64,000 nt of DNA, taken from Flavobacteriaceae bacterium (GTDB lineage: Bacteria; Bacteroidota; Bacteroidia; Flavobacteriales; Flavobacteriaceae). Both the position numbers and the translations under genes were made by a program. This document shows positions 3,534 to 17,445 of this stretch, piece after piece. Position 1 is the first letter of the stretch. Each line of letters begins with the position of its first letter. Location of the stretch: positions 1 to 64,000 of the forward strand of contig JALSLI010000197.1 in assembly GCA_026988395.1 (NCBI GenBank), given 5' to 3'. The notes beneath the pieces are model-generated. The model saw only the letters and a program-made list of their open reading frames with translations. It ran no database searches and had not been told where the DNA came from.

Positions 3534-4638
3534 TTAAATTTATTATTTTTAGAGCATTCTGTTTATTATCAAATAGTTTTAGTGCTTTTTTGCGTTTTTC
3601 AATTTCATCTTTACCGTATTCATTTTCAAAACACCATCTAATTTTTTCTTTAAATTCATTGTTACAATCGGCTATTTCACATAAATTTTCAAGACCTGTA
3701 TCTTCTACCATAGCATTATTTACTACACAAAACCGACTTTGAAAAAGAGCATAAATAAGTTTTAGTTTAATACCTGTTTTTTGAAATGTTGGCAAAACAT
3801 TTACTTGTGTTTCTTTAAACAATTCTTCTAATTTATTAGATGAATCCAGTTTAACAAATGAGATATTTTTATAAAGTTGTATTTCATTTTTTATTTCAGG
3901 GTGTGCATAGCTGCCGGCAACAACCAAAGGATATTCTAAATCTTTAAAAACCTTAAATAAATATTTGCATGCTTTTAAATTATCTGCTACTCTTAGATCA
4001 CCATGATACATCGCAAATTTTCCTTTTCCTGATAAATTTTTGACCTCATTATTTTTATGAAAAACAGGGATGTATTTTGCTTTATCTCCAAATTTATTTT
4101 TAAAATAACGTTGTTCGTAAGGAGATATGGTTAAAATATAGGTTGCTTTTTGTAAAATTTTCTCGTAAGATTTTAGTTTTTTAGCCTCTTGTTTAAAAAA
4201 AGATTTTCTAGGTAATTTACTTTCACTTTTAGCTAATCCTAAATAATATTTGTGCTCAATATTATGTGTTCTTACCAGTATTATCCTATTTTTAAAATCA
4301 TAATCATTTAAAGGATAAGTAGTATGTAAGCCTTCAAACAAAATAGGATGTTGGTCTTTTAGCAAGTTTTTTATAAGGTTAGAATTGCTTCTGGATTTTA
4401 CAATAAAAGGCTTGGAAGACAATAAATTTAAAGGTGATTTTGAACGTTTGTAGTAAAAAATTTCTTCACAATATTTTTCCAGTTCTTTAGATTTTCCTTT
4501 ACCGTATTCAAAAGTGTGTAATACAATATTTAATCCTAATTTATGTAGTACTTTTATTTTAAAAAAAACATCTATTACTCCGCCATAATTTGGCGGAAAT
4601 GGAACGTCAAACGAAACAATATGTATGGTTTTTTTCAA
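3520..4638 (-). CDS. Glycosyltransferase, GT4-like
   Basis: N-terminal SFDVPFPPNYGGVIDVFFKI; YHGDLRVADNLKACKYLFKVF; VNVLPTFQKTGIKLKLIYAL. Confidence 0.75.
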   Translation of the reverse strand: MKKTIHIVSFDVPFPPNYGGVIDVFFKIKVLHKLGLNIVLHTFEYGKGKSKELEKYCEEIFYYKRSKSPLNLLSSKPFIVKSRSNSNLIKNLLKDQHPILFEGLHTTYPLNDYDFKNRIILVRTHNIEHKYYLGLAKSESKLPRKSFFKQEAKKLKSYEKILQKATYILTISPYEQRYFKNKFGDKAKYIPVFHKNNEVKNLSGKGKFAMYHGDLRVADNLKACKYLFKVFKDLEYPLVVAGSYAHPEIKNEIQLYKNISFVKLDSSNKLEELFKETQVNVLPTFQKTGIKLKLIYALFQSRFCVVNNAMVEDTGLENLCEIADCNNEFKEKIRWCFENEYGKDEIEKRKKALKLFDNKQNALKIINLIANK

Positions 4639-4670
4639 AAAATAGTTTTAATGGAACAAAAGTAAATAAA

Positions 4671-4697
4671 AAAAGGTTGCCAATTAGCAACCCTTTT
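4671..4697 (-). terminator. Terminator downstream of M13 peptidase gene
   Basis: ggttgc-caatta-gcaacc; on the minus strand followed by TTTTTTT. Confidence 0.75.
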
Positions 4698-4714
4698 AGA
4701 AATACGTTTAATTT

Positions 4715-6772
4715 TTACCAAATCCTAACACGATCTTCAGGTTTTAAATACATTTTATCGCCTTCCTTTACTTGAAATGCCTTATAAAAAGCATCTACAT
4801 TTTTTAGAGGCATATATGCTCGGTACATTCCCGGAGCATGTGGATTAGTTTTAATTAAATTTCGTAAAGCATCTTCTCTCATTTTGGTTCTCCATACAGT
4901 TGCCCAAGACATAAAGAAGCGTTGATCAGGAGTAAAACCGTCAATTTTACCCGGTTTTTTCGTGTTTTTATAATTTAATTGTAATGCATCATATGCTACG
5001 TTTACGCCTCCTAAATCACCAATATTTTCACCTAAATTAAATTTACCATTTAGAAAAACGCCGGGCAATGCTTCTATTTGATTAAATTGTTCCTCTAGTT
5101 TTTTACCTCTTTCGGCAAAATTCTTTTCATCTTCTTTTGTCCACCAATTATTTAGATTTCCATCGCCGTCATATCTTGCTCCGGAATCATCAAAACTATG
5201 GGATATTTCGTGACCGATAACTGCTCCTATTCCGCCGTAATTCACGGCATCGTCTGCTTTATAATTATAAAAAGGAGGTTGTAAAATTGCTGCCGGAAAT
5301 ACAATTTCATTATTTGGAGGATTAAAATAAGCATTTACCGTTTGTGGCGACATATGCCATTCGGTTTTGTCAACAGGTTTTCCTATTTTAGCCATATTTT
5401 CATCAAAACGAAATTTAGAAACCGCTTTTCTATTTTCATAATATGAATTTTCTTTATTTACTTTTAATTTTGAATAGTCTTTCCATTTATCCGGATAAGC
5501 AATTTTAACCGTCATTTTATGCAGCTTTGCAATGGCATTTTCTTTTGTTTTATCACTCATCCATTCAACTTTTTTAATACGTTGTTCAAAAGCTGTTTGA
5601 ATGTTTTTAATCATTTTTTCCGCTTTTGCTTTAGCTTGGGGTGGAAATTTTTTGGCTACATATAATTTTCCTAAAGCTTCACCAACAGAGCCGTTAACAA
5701 CACTTAAACCTCTTTCTTTAATAGGCCTTTGTTTTTTAGAACCTCTTAGCGTTTTGCTGTAAAACTCCCAATTTGCTTTATCAATATCTTGGGTTAAAGA
5801 TCCTGCCGCACCATCGATTATATTCCATTTTAAGTAATCTTTAATGGTATTGATGTCTGTATTGTTTAAAACAGAATTTAACGATTTAAAATATTTTGGG
5901 TCTGTAACAATTAATGTATCAATGTTTTTTAGACCCAAATCTTTAAAATATTTTTTCATATCCAAAACCGGTGTCATTTTAGCAATTTCTTCAATGGATC
6001 TAGGGTTATATCGTTTTCGATCATCTCGATTTTCTTCTTTTGTTTTTCTGGGTATTGCTAATGCAGTTTCAAATGCAAGGATTTTTTTAGCCTTTTCTTC
6101 CGGATTTTTTTCATTGATAAATGTTAACATTCTAGCGATATGTTCTTCGTATTTTTTTAATTTTTCTTTTGTATCAGCATCTTTATCAACATAATAATCG
6201 CGACTTAAGCCCAAACCGGCAGGAAATAAAAAGACGGTGTTTTCATTAGATTTTTTAGGATGTGAACCTACATACAAGCCAAAAAAACCGGGACCTCCGT
6301 AAGGTTGTGTTTTGGTCATAAAATTTTGTACATCTTTTAAATCTTTAATTCCATCCACTTTTTTTAATAGCGGAATAATTGGTTGGATACCATTTTTATT
6401 TCTTGTAGCCAAATCCGTATAAGATTGAAAAAGATATACTGCTTTTTGTTGGTCTGTAATTTCGTTTTGTTTAGCATCTTTTAATGCGTTATTTTTCATT
6501 TCATTTTCTAATATTGCCAACACATCATCATCGGTTTTTTTACGAAGTTCGTTAAAACTTCCCCAAGAGGTTCGGTCGGCCGGAATTTCGGTTCTCTTTA
6601 ACCAATTGCCGTTTACATATTTAAAGAAATCATCTTTCGGACTAACTAAGGTGTCGATATTTTCTAATTCGATTCCCGGTGTTTTTGCTATTTCTCTTTT
6701 TTGTTTTTCCGCTTTACAAGAAAAAAGAGCAATTACAATACTCATTGCAATAATTGTTTTTGTTGTTTTCAT
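4715..6772 (-). CDS. M13 family metallopeptidase, lipoprotein
   Basis: HEISHSFDDSGARYD (HExxH), lipobox-like IALFSC; ATG at 6772 preferred over 6814. Confidence 0.95.
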   Translation of the reverse strand: MKTTKTIIAMSIVIALFSCKAEKQKREIAKTPGIELENIDTLVSPKDDFFKYVNGNWLKRTEIPADRTSWGSFNELRKKTDDDVLAILENEMKNNALKDAKQNEITDQQKAVYLFQSYTDLATRNKNGIQPIIPLLKKVDGIKDLKDVQNFMTKTQPYGGPGFFGLYVGSHPKKSNENTVFLFPAGLGLSRDYYVDKDADTKEKLKKYEEHIARMLTFINEKNPEEKAKKILAFETALAIPRKTKEENRDDRKRYNPRSIEEIAKMTPVLDMKKYFKDLGLKNIDTLIVTDPKYFKSLNSVLNNTDINTIKDYLKWNIIDGAAGSLTQDIDKANWEFYSKTLRGSKKQRPIKERGLSVVNGSVGEALGKLYVAKKFPPQAKAKAEKMIKNIQTAFEQRIKKVEWMSDKTKENAIAKLHKMTVKIAYPDKWKDYSKLKVNKENSYYENRKAVSKFRFDENMAKIGKPVDKTEWHMSPQTVNAYFNPPNNEIVFPAAILQPPFYNYKADDAVNYGGIGAVIGHEISHSFDDSGARYDGDGNLNNWWTKEDEKNFAERGKKLEEQFNQIEALPGVFLNGKFNLGENIGDLGGVNVAYDALQLNYKNTKKPGKIDGFTPDQRFFMSWATVWRTKMREDALRNLIKTNPHAPGMYRAYMPLKNVDAFYKAFQVKEGDKMYLKPEDRVRIW

Positions 6773-14400: not shown

Positions 14401-14943
14401 AGTGTGCGTAGAGCAATGGCAATTCAGTTAATTATTAATAAAGAATTGGGTTTGGCTAAAAATGAAAATCCGATTCAAGGAGCTTTTATTATTGAAGAAT
14501 TAACCGATTTGGTAGAGGAAGCCATTTATTTGGAATTTGACCGTTTAACGGAAAGAGGAGGCGTTTTAGGAGCAATGGAAACCATGTATCAACGAAGTAA
14601 AATACAAGAAGAAAGCTTGTATTATGAAACATTAAAACACACAGGAGAGTTCCCGATTATCGGAGTAAATACCTTTTTAAGTTCGAAAGGTTCTCCAACC
14701 GAAATACCAAAAGAAGTAATCCGTGCAACCGAAGAAGAAAAACAATATCAAATAGAAGTAATTAAAAATTTACATAAAGGAAACAAAGAAAAAACCGAAA
14801 AACAACTCAAATTATTACAAGAAAAAGCTGTAAACAACGAAAATATATTCGCTCAATTAATGGAAGCAACTAAAGTGTGTTCTATTGGTCAAATAACAGA
14901 TGCGTTGTTTAAAGTAGGCGGGCAATACCGCAGAAATATGTGA
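11497..14943 (+). CDS. icmF: Fused isobutyryl/methylmalonyl-CoA mutase (B12-binding domain, MeaB-like GTPase, mutase)
   Basis: B12 domain [19 protein letters not shown]-loop [20 protein letters not shown]; mutase [35 protein letters not shown]-terminal GGQYRRNM. Confidence 0.93.
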
Positions 14944-14952
14944 TTTAATAAC

Positions 14953-15017
14953 CTTTTAAAGCATCAATAAACGCGATTAAACCGTCTAATTCTACGTGAT
15001 CCATAATTACCACTTTG
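14953..15017 (-). repeat. Direct repeat copy 1: orphan copy of the 3' end of the PLP-decarboxylase gene
   Basis: 64/65 nt identical to 16212-16276, same orientation. Confidence 0.97.
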
Positions 15018-15021
15018 AAAA

Positions 15022-15081
15022 GATGAAAGTATTTTGAGCAATTAATGGAGGTAATCAAACTGTGCTATGTTGGTCAAACTA
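15022..15081 (+). pseudogene. Diverged 3'-end fragment of an icmF/methylmalonyl-CoA-mutase-like gene
   Basis: Encodes KYFEQLMEVIKLCYVGQTT*, compared with [19 protein letters not shown] in icmF at ~14843-14899. Confidence 0.65.
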
Positions 15082-15188
15082 CATAATAGTTGTTTGAAGT
15101 ATTTGACAGCAGTAGTAGCTACTTAACCTAAACTCAATGTTGTTCTAGCTATTCCTATAATTTGATTAGATAAAGTGAGCCAAGCTTA

Positions 15189-15443
15189 TCAATATTTAAT
15201 TAAGTTTGTGATTTCAAAATTATAATTCAATTCTTTTGATAATTTTTTAATATTCTTTATGGTATTAAGTAATTCAACATATTTACTTTTAAAGATTAAT
15301 TTCCCCAAAAAGCCCAGTTTCCAATAGAAAACAGTTGTAATTTTGTTATTTAAAAATTTGTTTGATAGTTTATAATAAAAATTATTTATATCAAAATCTC
15401 TGTTCAATTTAAAATTACAATTATTGTTTTTATTCGATTCCAT
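15189..15443 (-). CDS. Small basic hypothetical protein (84 aa), possible bacteriocin accessory/immunity protein
   Basis: ATG-started ORF immediately downstream of the bacteriocin-like gene on the same strand; no recognised family. Confidence 0.5.
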   Translation of the reverse strand: MESNKNNNCNFKLNRDFDINNFYYKLSNKFLNNKITTVFYWKLGFLGKLIFKSKYVELLNTIKNIKKLSKELNYNFEITNLIKY

Positions 15444-15477
15444 TTTAATGATAAATTAATATTGTTTACGTTCGAAT

Positions 15478-15666
15478 TTAGTTGTTAAATTGTTGATCCG
15501 ATACGTCACAAGTGCAAGTTGCTGTTCCTGTAAATATCCCAACAAGGTAACCAACTCCTCCAAAAAGAAATCCTCCTATAAGGGCTTGACCACCAATACA
15601 AGCGTCATAAGACGGGCAATTACCACCATTAATAACTTCCATTTGATTAATTTCTAAATTTTTCAT
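15478..15666 (-). CDS. Double-glycine-leader class II bacteriocin-like peptide
   Basis: MKNLEINQMEVINGG leader, then Gly-rich hydrophobic core NCPSYDACIGGQALIGGFLFGGVGYLVGIFTGTATCTCDVSDQQFNN; ATG at 15666. Confidence 0.8.
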   Translation of the reverse strand: MKNLEINQMEVINGGNCPSYDACIGGQALIGGFLFGGVGYLVGIFTGTATCTCDVSDQQFNN

Positions 15667-15933
15667 AAAAGTACATTTTTTAAGATAAAACACAAAATTG
15701 AAAATATTTTTTTATTCAATTTGCTAATTTATCAGGTTATTAATTGTTTTTTACAACTTACTTTAAAGACGCTTGTAGTTTACGTCTTTATACTACGTAA
15801 TATTTTGTAACGTATCACACTGTATGATTACTATGCAAAAATACAAACAAATAGAATATGTTATTATGTAAAAAACGGGTATTTTTAGTCTAATTTTGCA
15901 TATAATATTATTTCTATTAAATAAAATCTCGAA

Positions 15934-16058
15934 ATGTTACGAAAAAAATCATTTAAAAATAGGTGTTTTTACTCGTTTTATTAATTATACAAAAAGAATC
16001 AATTAGTGTTGCCTTAAATAAAGCTGATGCTATCTCTTTCATTAAAAAGGTTTATTGA
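15934..16058 (+). pseudogene. Possible frameshifted N-terminal remnant of an exported protein
   Basis: MLRKKSFKNR, then a frame change into VFLLVLLIIQKESISVALNKADAISFIKKVY*; preceded by taattttgc promoter-like motif. Confidence 0.25.
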
Positions 16059-16203
16059 GGGCTTCACTTTATGTAAAACCCCCACTTTTTCGGGTGTTAA
16101 ATTATTTTTTTAGAGTATATGTATTTTACAAAAATGTACTTACTTTTGAAATAGACTAGAAAAATAAACGTATATGTCAATTAGAGAGACATCGATGTAG
16201 TAT

Positions 16204-17445
16204 TTATATTTCTTTTAAAGCATCAATAAACGCGATTAAATCGTCTAATTCTACGTGATCCATAATTACCACTTTGTACCATTTTGGATTGCCGTTATGG
16301 GTATCCGGAACCAATTCGTATTTATTAGCAATAGCTTCCGGAACATATTTGGCATGAATGGTAATGATATTCATTCGTGGATTTCGGTAATATTTTATGT
16401 TTAATTCGTCTAATTGTTTACAGAACCAATCCGTTCGCATAAGTAAAATGGATATTTTTTCAAACCAACCGTAAAATCCATATGAAAATAAAATCATCCA
16501 AACGGCAATTGCATTAGTTCCTGATCTACTTCCGGAAACGGTTACATCCGTTCCATTTACGTATTGAGCTTCTTTGGTTGCGGCGTAAGTGATTAATCCT
16601 TTTCTACATAAAAATATACCTGTTCCGTAAGGAGCTTGCAGCATTTTATGTGCATCAATGGTAATGGATGAAATATCCGGATTAGAAAAATCAATTCGGT
16701 TTGTATCTTTTGAACTATTTGCTTTAAAAGGATAGATAAATCCACCAAAAGCACCATCGATATGAATGCGAAATTCCACGTCGTTTTTTCGTAAAGCTTC
16801 TGTATAAATTTTTGGATCATCCACAGAACCAAACATGGTGGTTGCCATATTAGAAACTACAATAAAATATTTTTTTCCGTTTTCTTTTTGGGTTTTTATT
16901 ATTTTGTCTAATGCATCTGTTAAAATTTCTCTTGTTTCAAAATCAACCGGAACAAAAGCAATATCCAAATCTAATAAATTAGCACCTTTTGGCATAGAAT
17001 AGTGTGAGTCCTCCGAGCAGAGAATTATAATTTCATCTTGCTTGGCTTGGTATTCTTTTTTAAACATATTACGGTAAACCCATAAAGCTTCAATATTGGC
17101 TTCTGTTCCACCTGTAGCGATATATCCGTCGTATTTTTCTTCGTTACAATAAAAAATATCTACGGCTAAAACCTGTAAAACTTCACGTTCAATTTGTTGC
17201 GTTCCGTTAAAGGCATGTTCCGATTCGCCAAAAGTATGGCAACCAATATTATTTGGATTTTTAACAAAAGCCTGTAATAATGGAGAATCTTTTAAAAAGG
17301 AAACATCAGTATTAAAAACTTTATCGTCTAGTTTTGAAGCAGGATATCCTAAAGAAATATCGCTTTCAAAATCAACTGTATCTTTTAAAGCTTCTCGGAT
17401 TCTTTTATTCTGTTGCTCTTTGGTGAGTCTTTTCCAGTATTTCAT
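16204..17445 (-). CDS. Group II PLP-dependent (aspartate/histidine-type) decarboxylase
   Basis: CHTFGESEHAF, YIATGGTEANIEAL, HIDGAFGGF, TIDAHKMLQAPYGTG (PLP lysine). Confidence 0.93.
   Translation of the reverse strand: MKYWKRLTKEQQNKRIREALKDTVDFESDISLGYPASKLDDKVFNTDVSFLKDSPLLQAFVKNPNNIGCHTFGESEHAFNGTQQIEREVLQVLAVDIFYCNEEKYDGYIATGGTEANIEALWVYRNMFKKEYQAKQDEIIILCSEDSHYSMPKGANLLDLDIAFVPVDFETREILTDALDKIIKTQKENGKKYFIVVSNMATTMFGSVDDPKIYTEALRKNDVEFRIHIDGAFGGFIYPFKANSSKDTNRIDFSNPDISSITIDAHKMLQAPYGTGIFLCRKGLITYAATKEAQYVNGTDVTVSGSRSGTNAIAVWMILFSYGFYGWFEKISILLMRTDWFCKQLDELNIKYYRNPRMNIITIHAKYVPEAIANKYELVPDTHNGNPKWYKVVIMDHVELDDLIAFIDALKEI
16212..16276 (-). repeat. Direct repeat copy 2 (inside the decarboxylase 3' end)
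   Basis: 64/65 nt match with 14953-15017. Confidence 0.97.

Follow-up and report, generated by a model that had tools for sequence, protein, structure and literature searches.

The double-glycine-leader (GG) peptide encoded in the analysed window, that is, the whole stretch of 64,000 nucleotides taken from the draft genome of a Flavobacteriaceae bacterium (2.37 Mb, 84% complete, 200 contigs), is, as far as its sequence and its relatives allow it to be classified, a genuine, solitary class-II-type bacteriocin of Bacteroidota, belonging to a kind that is already known. The open reading frame (ORF) that follows it is probably its immunity protein. The reading that we favour, with somewhat more belief than doubt, is that of a solitary bacteriocin and immunity pair that is either stranded or borrows an exporter encoded on another contig, C13. 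The points of interest are the partner family and the missing exporter; the peptide is otherwise ordinary in kind. The features of the pair are as follows:

15478..15666, minus strand: 62-aa double-glycine-leader bacteriocin-like precursor peptide (ORF read, profile score, relatives in 16 loci)
15622..15666, minus strand: leader MKNLEINQMEVINGG, with predicted C39 cleavage after GG (conserved columns in 21 members)
15481..15621, minus strand: 47-aa core with Cys 2/8/36/38, a Gly-rich hydrophobic centre and a net charge of -3
15189..15443, minus strand: 84-aa basic ORF, candidate immunity protein of the WxxGxxGxxxFK family (profile of the partners in loci L123, L131 and L137)

The precursor ORF runs on the minus strand from the ATG at 15666 to the stop codon ending at 15478 and encodes 62 aa in total, i.e., the 15-aa leader MKNLEINQMEVINGG and a 47-aa core with cysteines at positions 2, 8, 36 and 38. 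The original prediction had described the peptide, its division into leader and core and the four cysteines exactly, with the strand unnamed. The G + C content of the gene is 36.5%, and an AT-rich ORF of 62 aa would by itself carry no weight. The leader has hydrophobic residues at -4 (I), -7 (M) and -12 (L) and glycines at -2/-1, which is the general pattern of C39-exported GG peptides; the same positions and the GG are read by a characterised C39 protease of solved structure (PMC6363468). The peptide had no match in the plasmid and phage collections, none of the viral contigs matched, and the PDB sequence search found nothing. The AlphaFold model of the peptide (pLDDT 51.6) was too poor for fold searches.

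Relatives were first gathered from other flavobacteria, and the resulting six-member alignment was scanned once against the GTDB genome collection, which gave 16 named loci. Their hosts include Tenacibaculum, Flavobacterium, Winogradskyella, Subsaximicrobium, Capnocytophaga canis, Allomuricauda, a Bacteroidales MAG and others. The relatives' leaders follow the consensus MKxLELNQMExxxGG; among the 21 members, L4, M9, E10 and one C-terminal cysteine are invariant, and G14 of the leader is invariant or nearly so. When the profile was built from 20 relatives and the precursor left out, the precursor scored 47.6 bits, whereas no full shuffle out of 1000 exceeded 13.9 bits. When only the core was shuffled and the leader kept (n = 1000), the scores averaged 33.5 bits (sd 3.2, maximum 45.8), so most of the profile signal comes from the leader and a smaller but real part from the core. 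Without the leader, the core similarity is weak (8.5 bits); in pairwise comparisons with 500 shuffles each, the nearest cores were those of loci L134 (z 6.6), L131 (5.1) and L123 (5.0). Taken as sequence evidence, these scores support homology rather than chance as the basis of the peptide call. The single-peptide search of 199 relatives gave only matches that were weak on their own, some of them chance matches in other frames, and the leader pattern at the DNA level occurred at 67 sites in 400 genomes of the family, only about eight of which are GG-peptide genes. In its own genome the 21-member profile matched the window locus only, and it had no match in five genus-mates.

In two of the relatives (L131:4994-5170 and L128:4994-5190), an in-frame TAA stop lies early in the core and is followed by a well-conserved continuation; judged from the reading frames, these are probably decaying bacteriocin genes.

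A contiguous triad of genes adjoins the peptide in 13 of the 16 named loci; it encodes a membrane protein of ~210 aa, a CxxC thiol oxidoreductase of ~172 aa and a C39 ABC transporter of ~720 aa. The hydropathy of eight triad membrane proteins indicated five transmembrane (TM) stretches in six of them and four in two. The bacteriocin-like character given to the peptide in the original prediction was thus borne out by homologues that conserve the leader and the C-terminal cysteine and mostly stand beside C39 exporters. Locus L157, which represents another family of the same class, contains two peptides followed by the same triad, while in genome G007 the peptides and the transporter are on different contigs. 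Based on gene content and peptide format, and not on bacteroidetocin sequences, we take the relatives' loci to be bacteroidetocin-type systems.

No cassette gene was matched within the window. Neither the five-TM gene nor the cassette-type C39 transporter was found in the draft genome of the strain or in five genus-mates (70-94% complete), and for the oxidoreductase the scores in the strain's genome did not rise above the generic thioredoxin level (33.5 bits vs 174.8 for the cassette copy of G007). It is worth adding that two genomes that are 99% complete, G025 (locus L107) and G102 (locus L108), carry GG-leader peptides with partner genes and have no C39 peptidase domain match anywhere, so exporter-less peptides are not unique to this draft.

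The genome-wide search returned two C39 matches, both on contig C13, in agreement with the predicted absence of a C39 transporter from the window. The sole C39 ABC transporter of the assembly is intact and belongs to a complete second GG-peptide export locus (L013, G000 contig C13:574-10381), which consists of an HlyD adaptor, the C39 ABC transporter, a C39-like/VKOR/thioredoxin fusion and three cysteine-rich GG peptides (4279-4449, 4556-4717 and 4888-5058), and which we read as also holding a LytTR-type regulator and a histidine kinase. The leaders of these peptides are longer and of another type (MKxLKKLGKxL..GG; leader_Chryseo-like, NF047798). The search for other leaders of the window type, which had been suggested, was negative: the pattern scan revealed no second one in the genome. 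The C39 domains of the cassette relatives share at least 65% identity with that of L137. With these domains the C39 domain of the C13 transporter shares 31-33% identity, and with those of several transporters of its own genus 50-65%. By these identities, the C13 transporter is of a subtype different from the cassette type, with its own three presumptive substrates. The GG-peptide transporter that the peptide, according to the original prediction, would need elsewhere in the genome thus exists, albeit as a different subtype. Position -7 is Gln in two of the three C13 leaders and M in the window leader. Borrowing of the C13 exporter by the window peptide is plausible, because the characterised C39 protease mentioned above cuts very diverse GG peptides (PMC6363468).

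The peptide had been called an orphan, which does not hold, since an ORF begins on the same strand 34 nt after its stop codon and members of the same family follow related peptides. This partner ORF has a charge of +9 and a G + C content of 18%, and it matched nothing in Pfam and nothing meaningful in NCBIfam. It aligns through a W-x2-G-x2-G-x3-F-K core with ORFs of L123, L131 and L137, each located directly downstream of a related GG peptide. Against the three-member profile of these partners it scored 22.8 bits, compared with 10.5 bits for the best of 2000 shuffles and 7.5 bits for the best of the other ORFs of the window and loci. Moreover, when the 22 cores are ordered by similarity to that of the window peptide, those of the peptides paired with this family (in L123, L131 and L137) take ranks 2, 3 and 7, and the chance of ranks as good as these is, by our own count, about 0.015. 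Core and neighbour would thus seem to vary together, as expected of a toxin and immunity pair, and the adjacency expected of an immunity gene recurs in several genomes (L123, L131, L137 and the window). The partner is probably the immunity protein for the peptide. The family-wide partner search gave only chance-level matches, many of which contained stops or lay within larger ORFs; the partner family is therefore either rare or too divergent for such a search. The AlphaFold model of the partner (pLDDT 55.7) was too poor for fold searches.

Another partner family, of 131-141 aa, occurs directly after the GG peptide in L122, L127, L130, L132 and L107; its presence in L128 is doubtful according to leave-one-out scores. 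Judged by eye, its members combine a beta-rich half with two TM stretches.

The pair is located in an islet between a gene that ends at 14943 and a gene at 16204-17445 (minus strand), which we read as methylmalonyl-CoA-mutase-like and glutamate-decarboxylase-like (gad), respectively. The features of the islet are as follows:

14953..15017, no strand: left copy of a 65-nt direct repeat matching the 3' end of gad, 98% identical to 16212-16276
15039..15101, no strand: copy of the 3' end of the mutase gene, diverged (76%)
15018..16211, no strand: AT-rich islet between the repeats, carrying the peptide and its partner
16212..16276, no strand: right copy of the 65-nt repeat, within the 3' end of gad

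The G + C content of the islet is 25%, compared with 31% for the window. Copies of both gene ends, that of gad and the diverged one of the mutase, lie at its left edge, and the whole arrangement resembles the scar of a recombination or integration event. All five genus-mates have the gad gene, but in the flanks examined there it has neither the mutase nor the islet next to it; therefore, the position of the islet looks specific to this lineage, as the description of the region as a non-conserved insert had implied.

Among the known systems, the closest are the bacteroidetocins, whose loci encode the peptide, a five-TM protein, mostly a thiol oxidoreductase and a C39 ABC transporter (Coyne et al. 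2019, PMC6671954). Their leaders have 15-16 aa and end in GG, the mature peptides have about 42-48 aa, and the cores contain at least two and usually four cysteines (PMC6671954). Such peptides serve Bacteroidota as weapons against competitors; the target of the bacteroidetocins is BamA (PMC8546649). The window peptide shares this format (15 + 47 aa), the four cysteines and the Bacteroidota host, and the loci of its relatives hold the same four gene types. However, the other three gene types are missing beside the window peptide, and its core is acidic (-3) and Gly-rich, whereas bacteroidetocin cores are basic. Moreover, the window peptide is followed by a candidate immunity gene; for the bacteroidetocins, whose producers inhibit themselves, none was found (PMC6671954). 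The lengths of leader and core and the number of cysteines are thus those of a bacteroidetocin, but the neighbouring export genes are absent, and for this reason we do not file the peptide as one. By analogy, if exported, it probably works like a bacteroidetocin. With the Gram-positive class II GG-leader bacteriocins it has the GG leader and a small Gly-rich core in common; the proposed HMM search against class II families did not place it there, as Bacteriocin_IIc (PF10439) gave 14.4 bits, under the curated cut-off of 27.1; across the family, the model had weak matches to 7 of the 21 members. Class IIa leaders typically have 18-24 aa (PMC6671954), compared with 15 aa here. The C13 peptides of the same genome (NF047798) likewise have GG leaders and cysteine cores, but they differ in their longer leaders, their cores and their C39 subtype (31-33% to the cassette type).

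Two further candidates were rejected. The similarity to C19orf12 (PF20721) was below the cut-off and probably reflects a shared glycine-rich composition. A lanthipeptide or other modified peptide was dropped, as there was no modification enzyme among the neighbouring ORFs.

In the mechanism that we favour, a precursor would be synthesised, and a C39-peptidase ABC transporter would remove its 15-aa GG leader during export. The 47-aa core, which may contain one or two disulfides, would then act on the envelope of related bacteria, and protection of the producer would come from the 84-aa protein encoded downstream. The peptides of the relatives would be exported by the neighbouring bacteroidetocin-type cassette; because this cassette is missing here, export would need the C13 transporter or genes missing from the assembly, or has ceased. 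Decay of the islet is possible, since it is AT-rich, its partner gene has 18% G + C, no terminator was found in it and no promoter stood above chance.

That export has indeed ceased, and that peptide and partner are the remains of a bacteroidetocin-type cassette that lost its transporter, is unlikely but deserves serious consideration. The cassette genes are absent from the genome and the genus-mates, and the base composition of the islet and of the partner, together with the stops in the peptide genes of L131 and L128, points in the same direction; the partner may then persist as protection against the bacteriocins of relatives. However, both ORFs are intact, the peptide gene has a higher G + C content than the islet and a fully canonical leader, and the genome still has a C39 transporter. 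Somewhat more doubtful is the proposal that the pair is a mobile toxin and immunity islet, free of its own exporter and using any host C39 transporter, in which the WxxGxxGxxxFK proteins are a new immunity family matched to a subset of cores. Were this true, specific immunity genes would be available for a bacteriocin type whose published members showed none.

It is improbable that the cognate cassette is present in the organism and missing from the assembly, which would make the peptide an ordinary satellite of a full system. The incompleteness of the draft and the separate contigs of peptides and transporter in G007 agree with this, but the cassette five-TM protein is lacking in all five genus-mates, and the nearly complete G102 and G025 demonstrate that such peptides do occur without an exporter. 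GG leaders serve pheromones too, and a signalling role instead of a toxic one would account for the leader; we regard it as very improbable, given that the hydrophobic, Gly-rich cysteine core of 47 aa and the adjacent partner fit a toxin and immunity pair better and that the islet holds no sensor gene.

Under the favoured reading of a solitary bacteriocin and immunity pair, a type of bacteriocin that is known mainly from the gut Bacteroidales gains flavobacterial members. It also gains two recurring families of candidate immunity proteins, where the published producers inhibit themselves and no immunity gene was found. In addition, the fate of a GG peptide that lacks an exporter of its own can be tested here.

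Loci L126, L129, L136 and L157 contain two different GG peptides in tandem, which are possibly two-peptide bacteriocins; in three of these four loci, the second peptide begins with a GG-x-(F/W)-x-x-x-FC-like motif.
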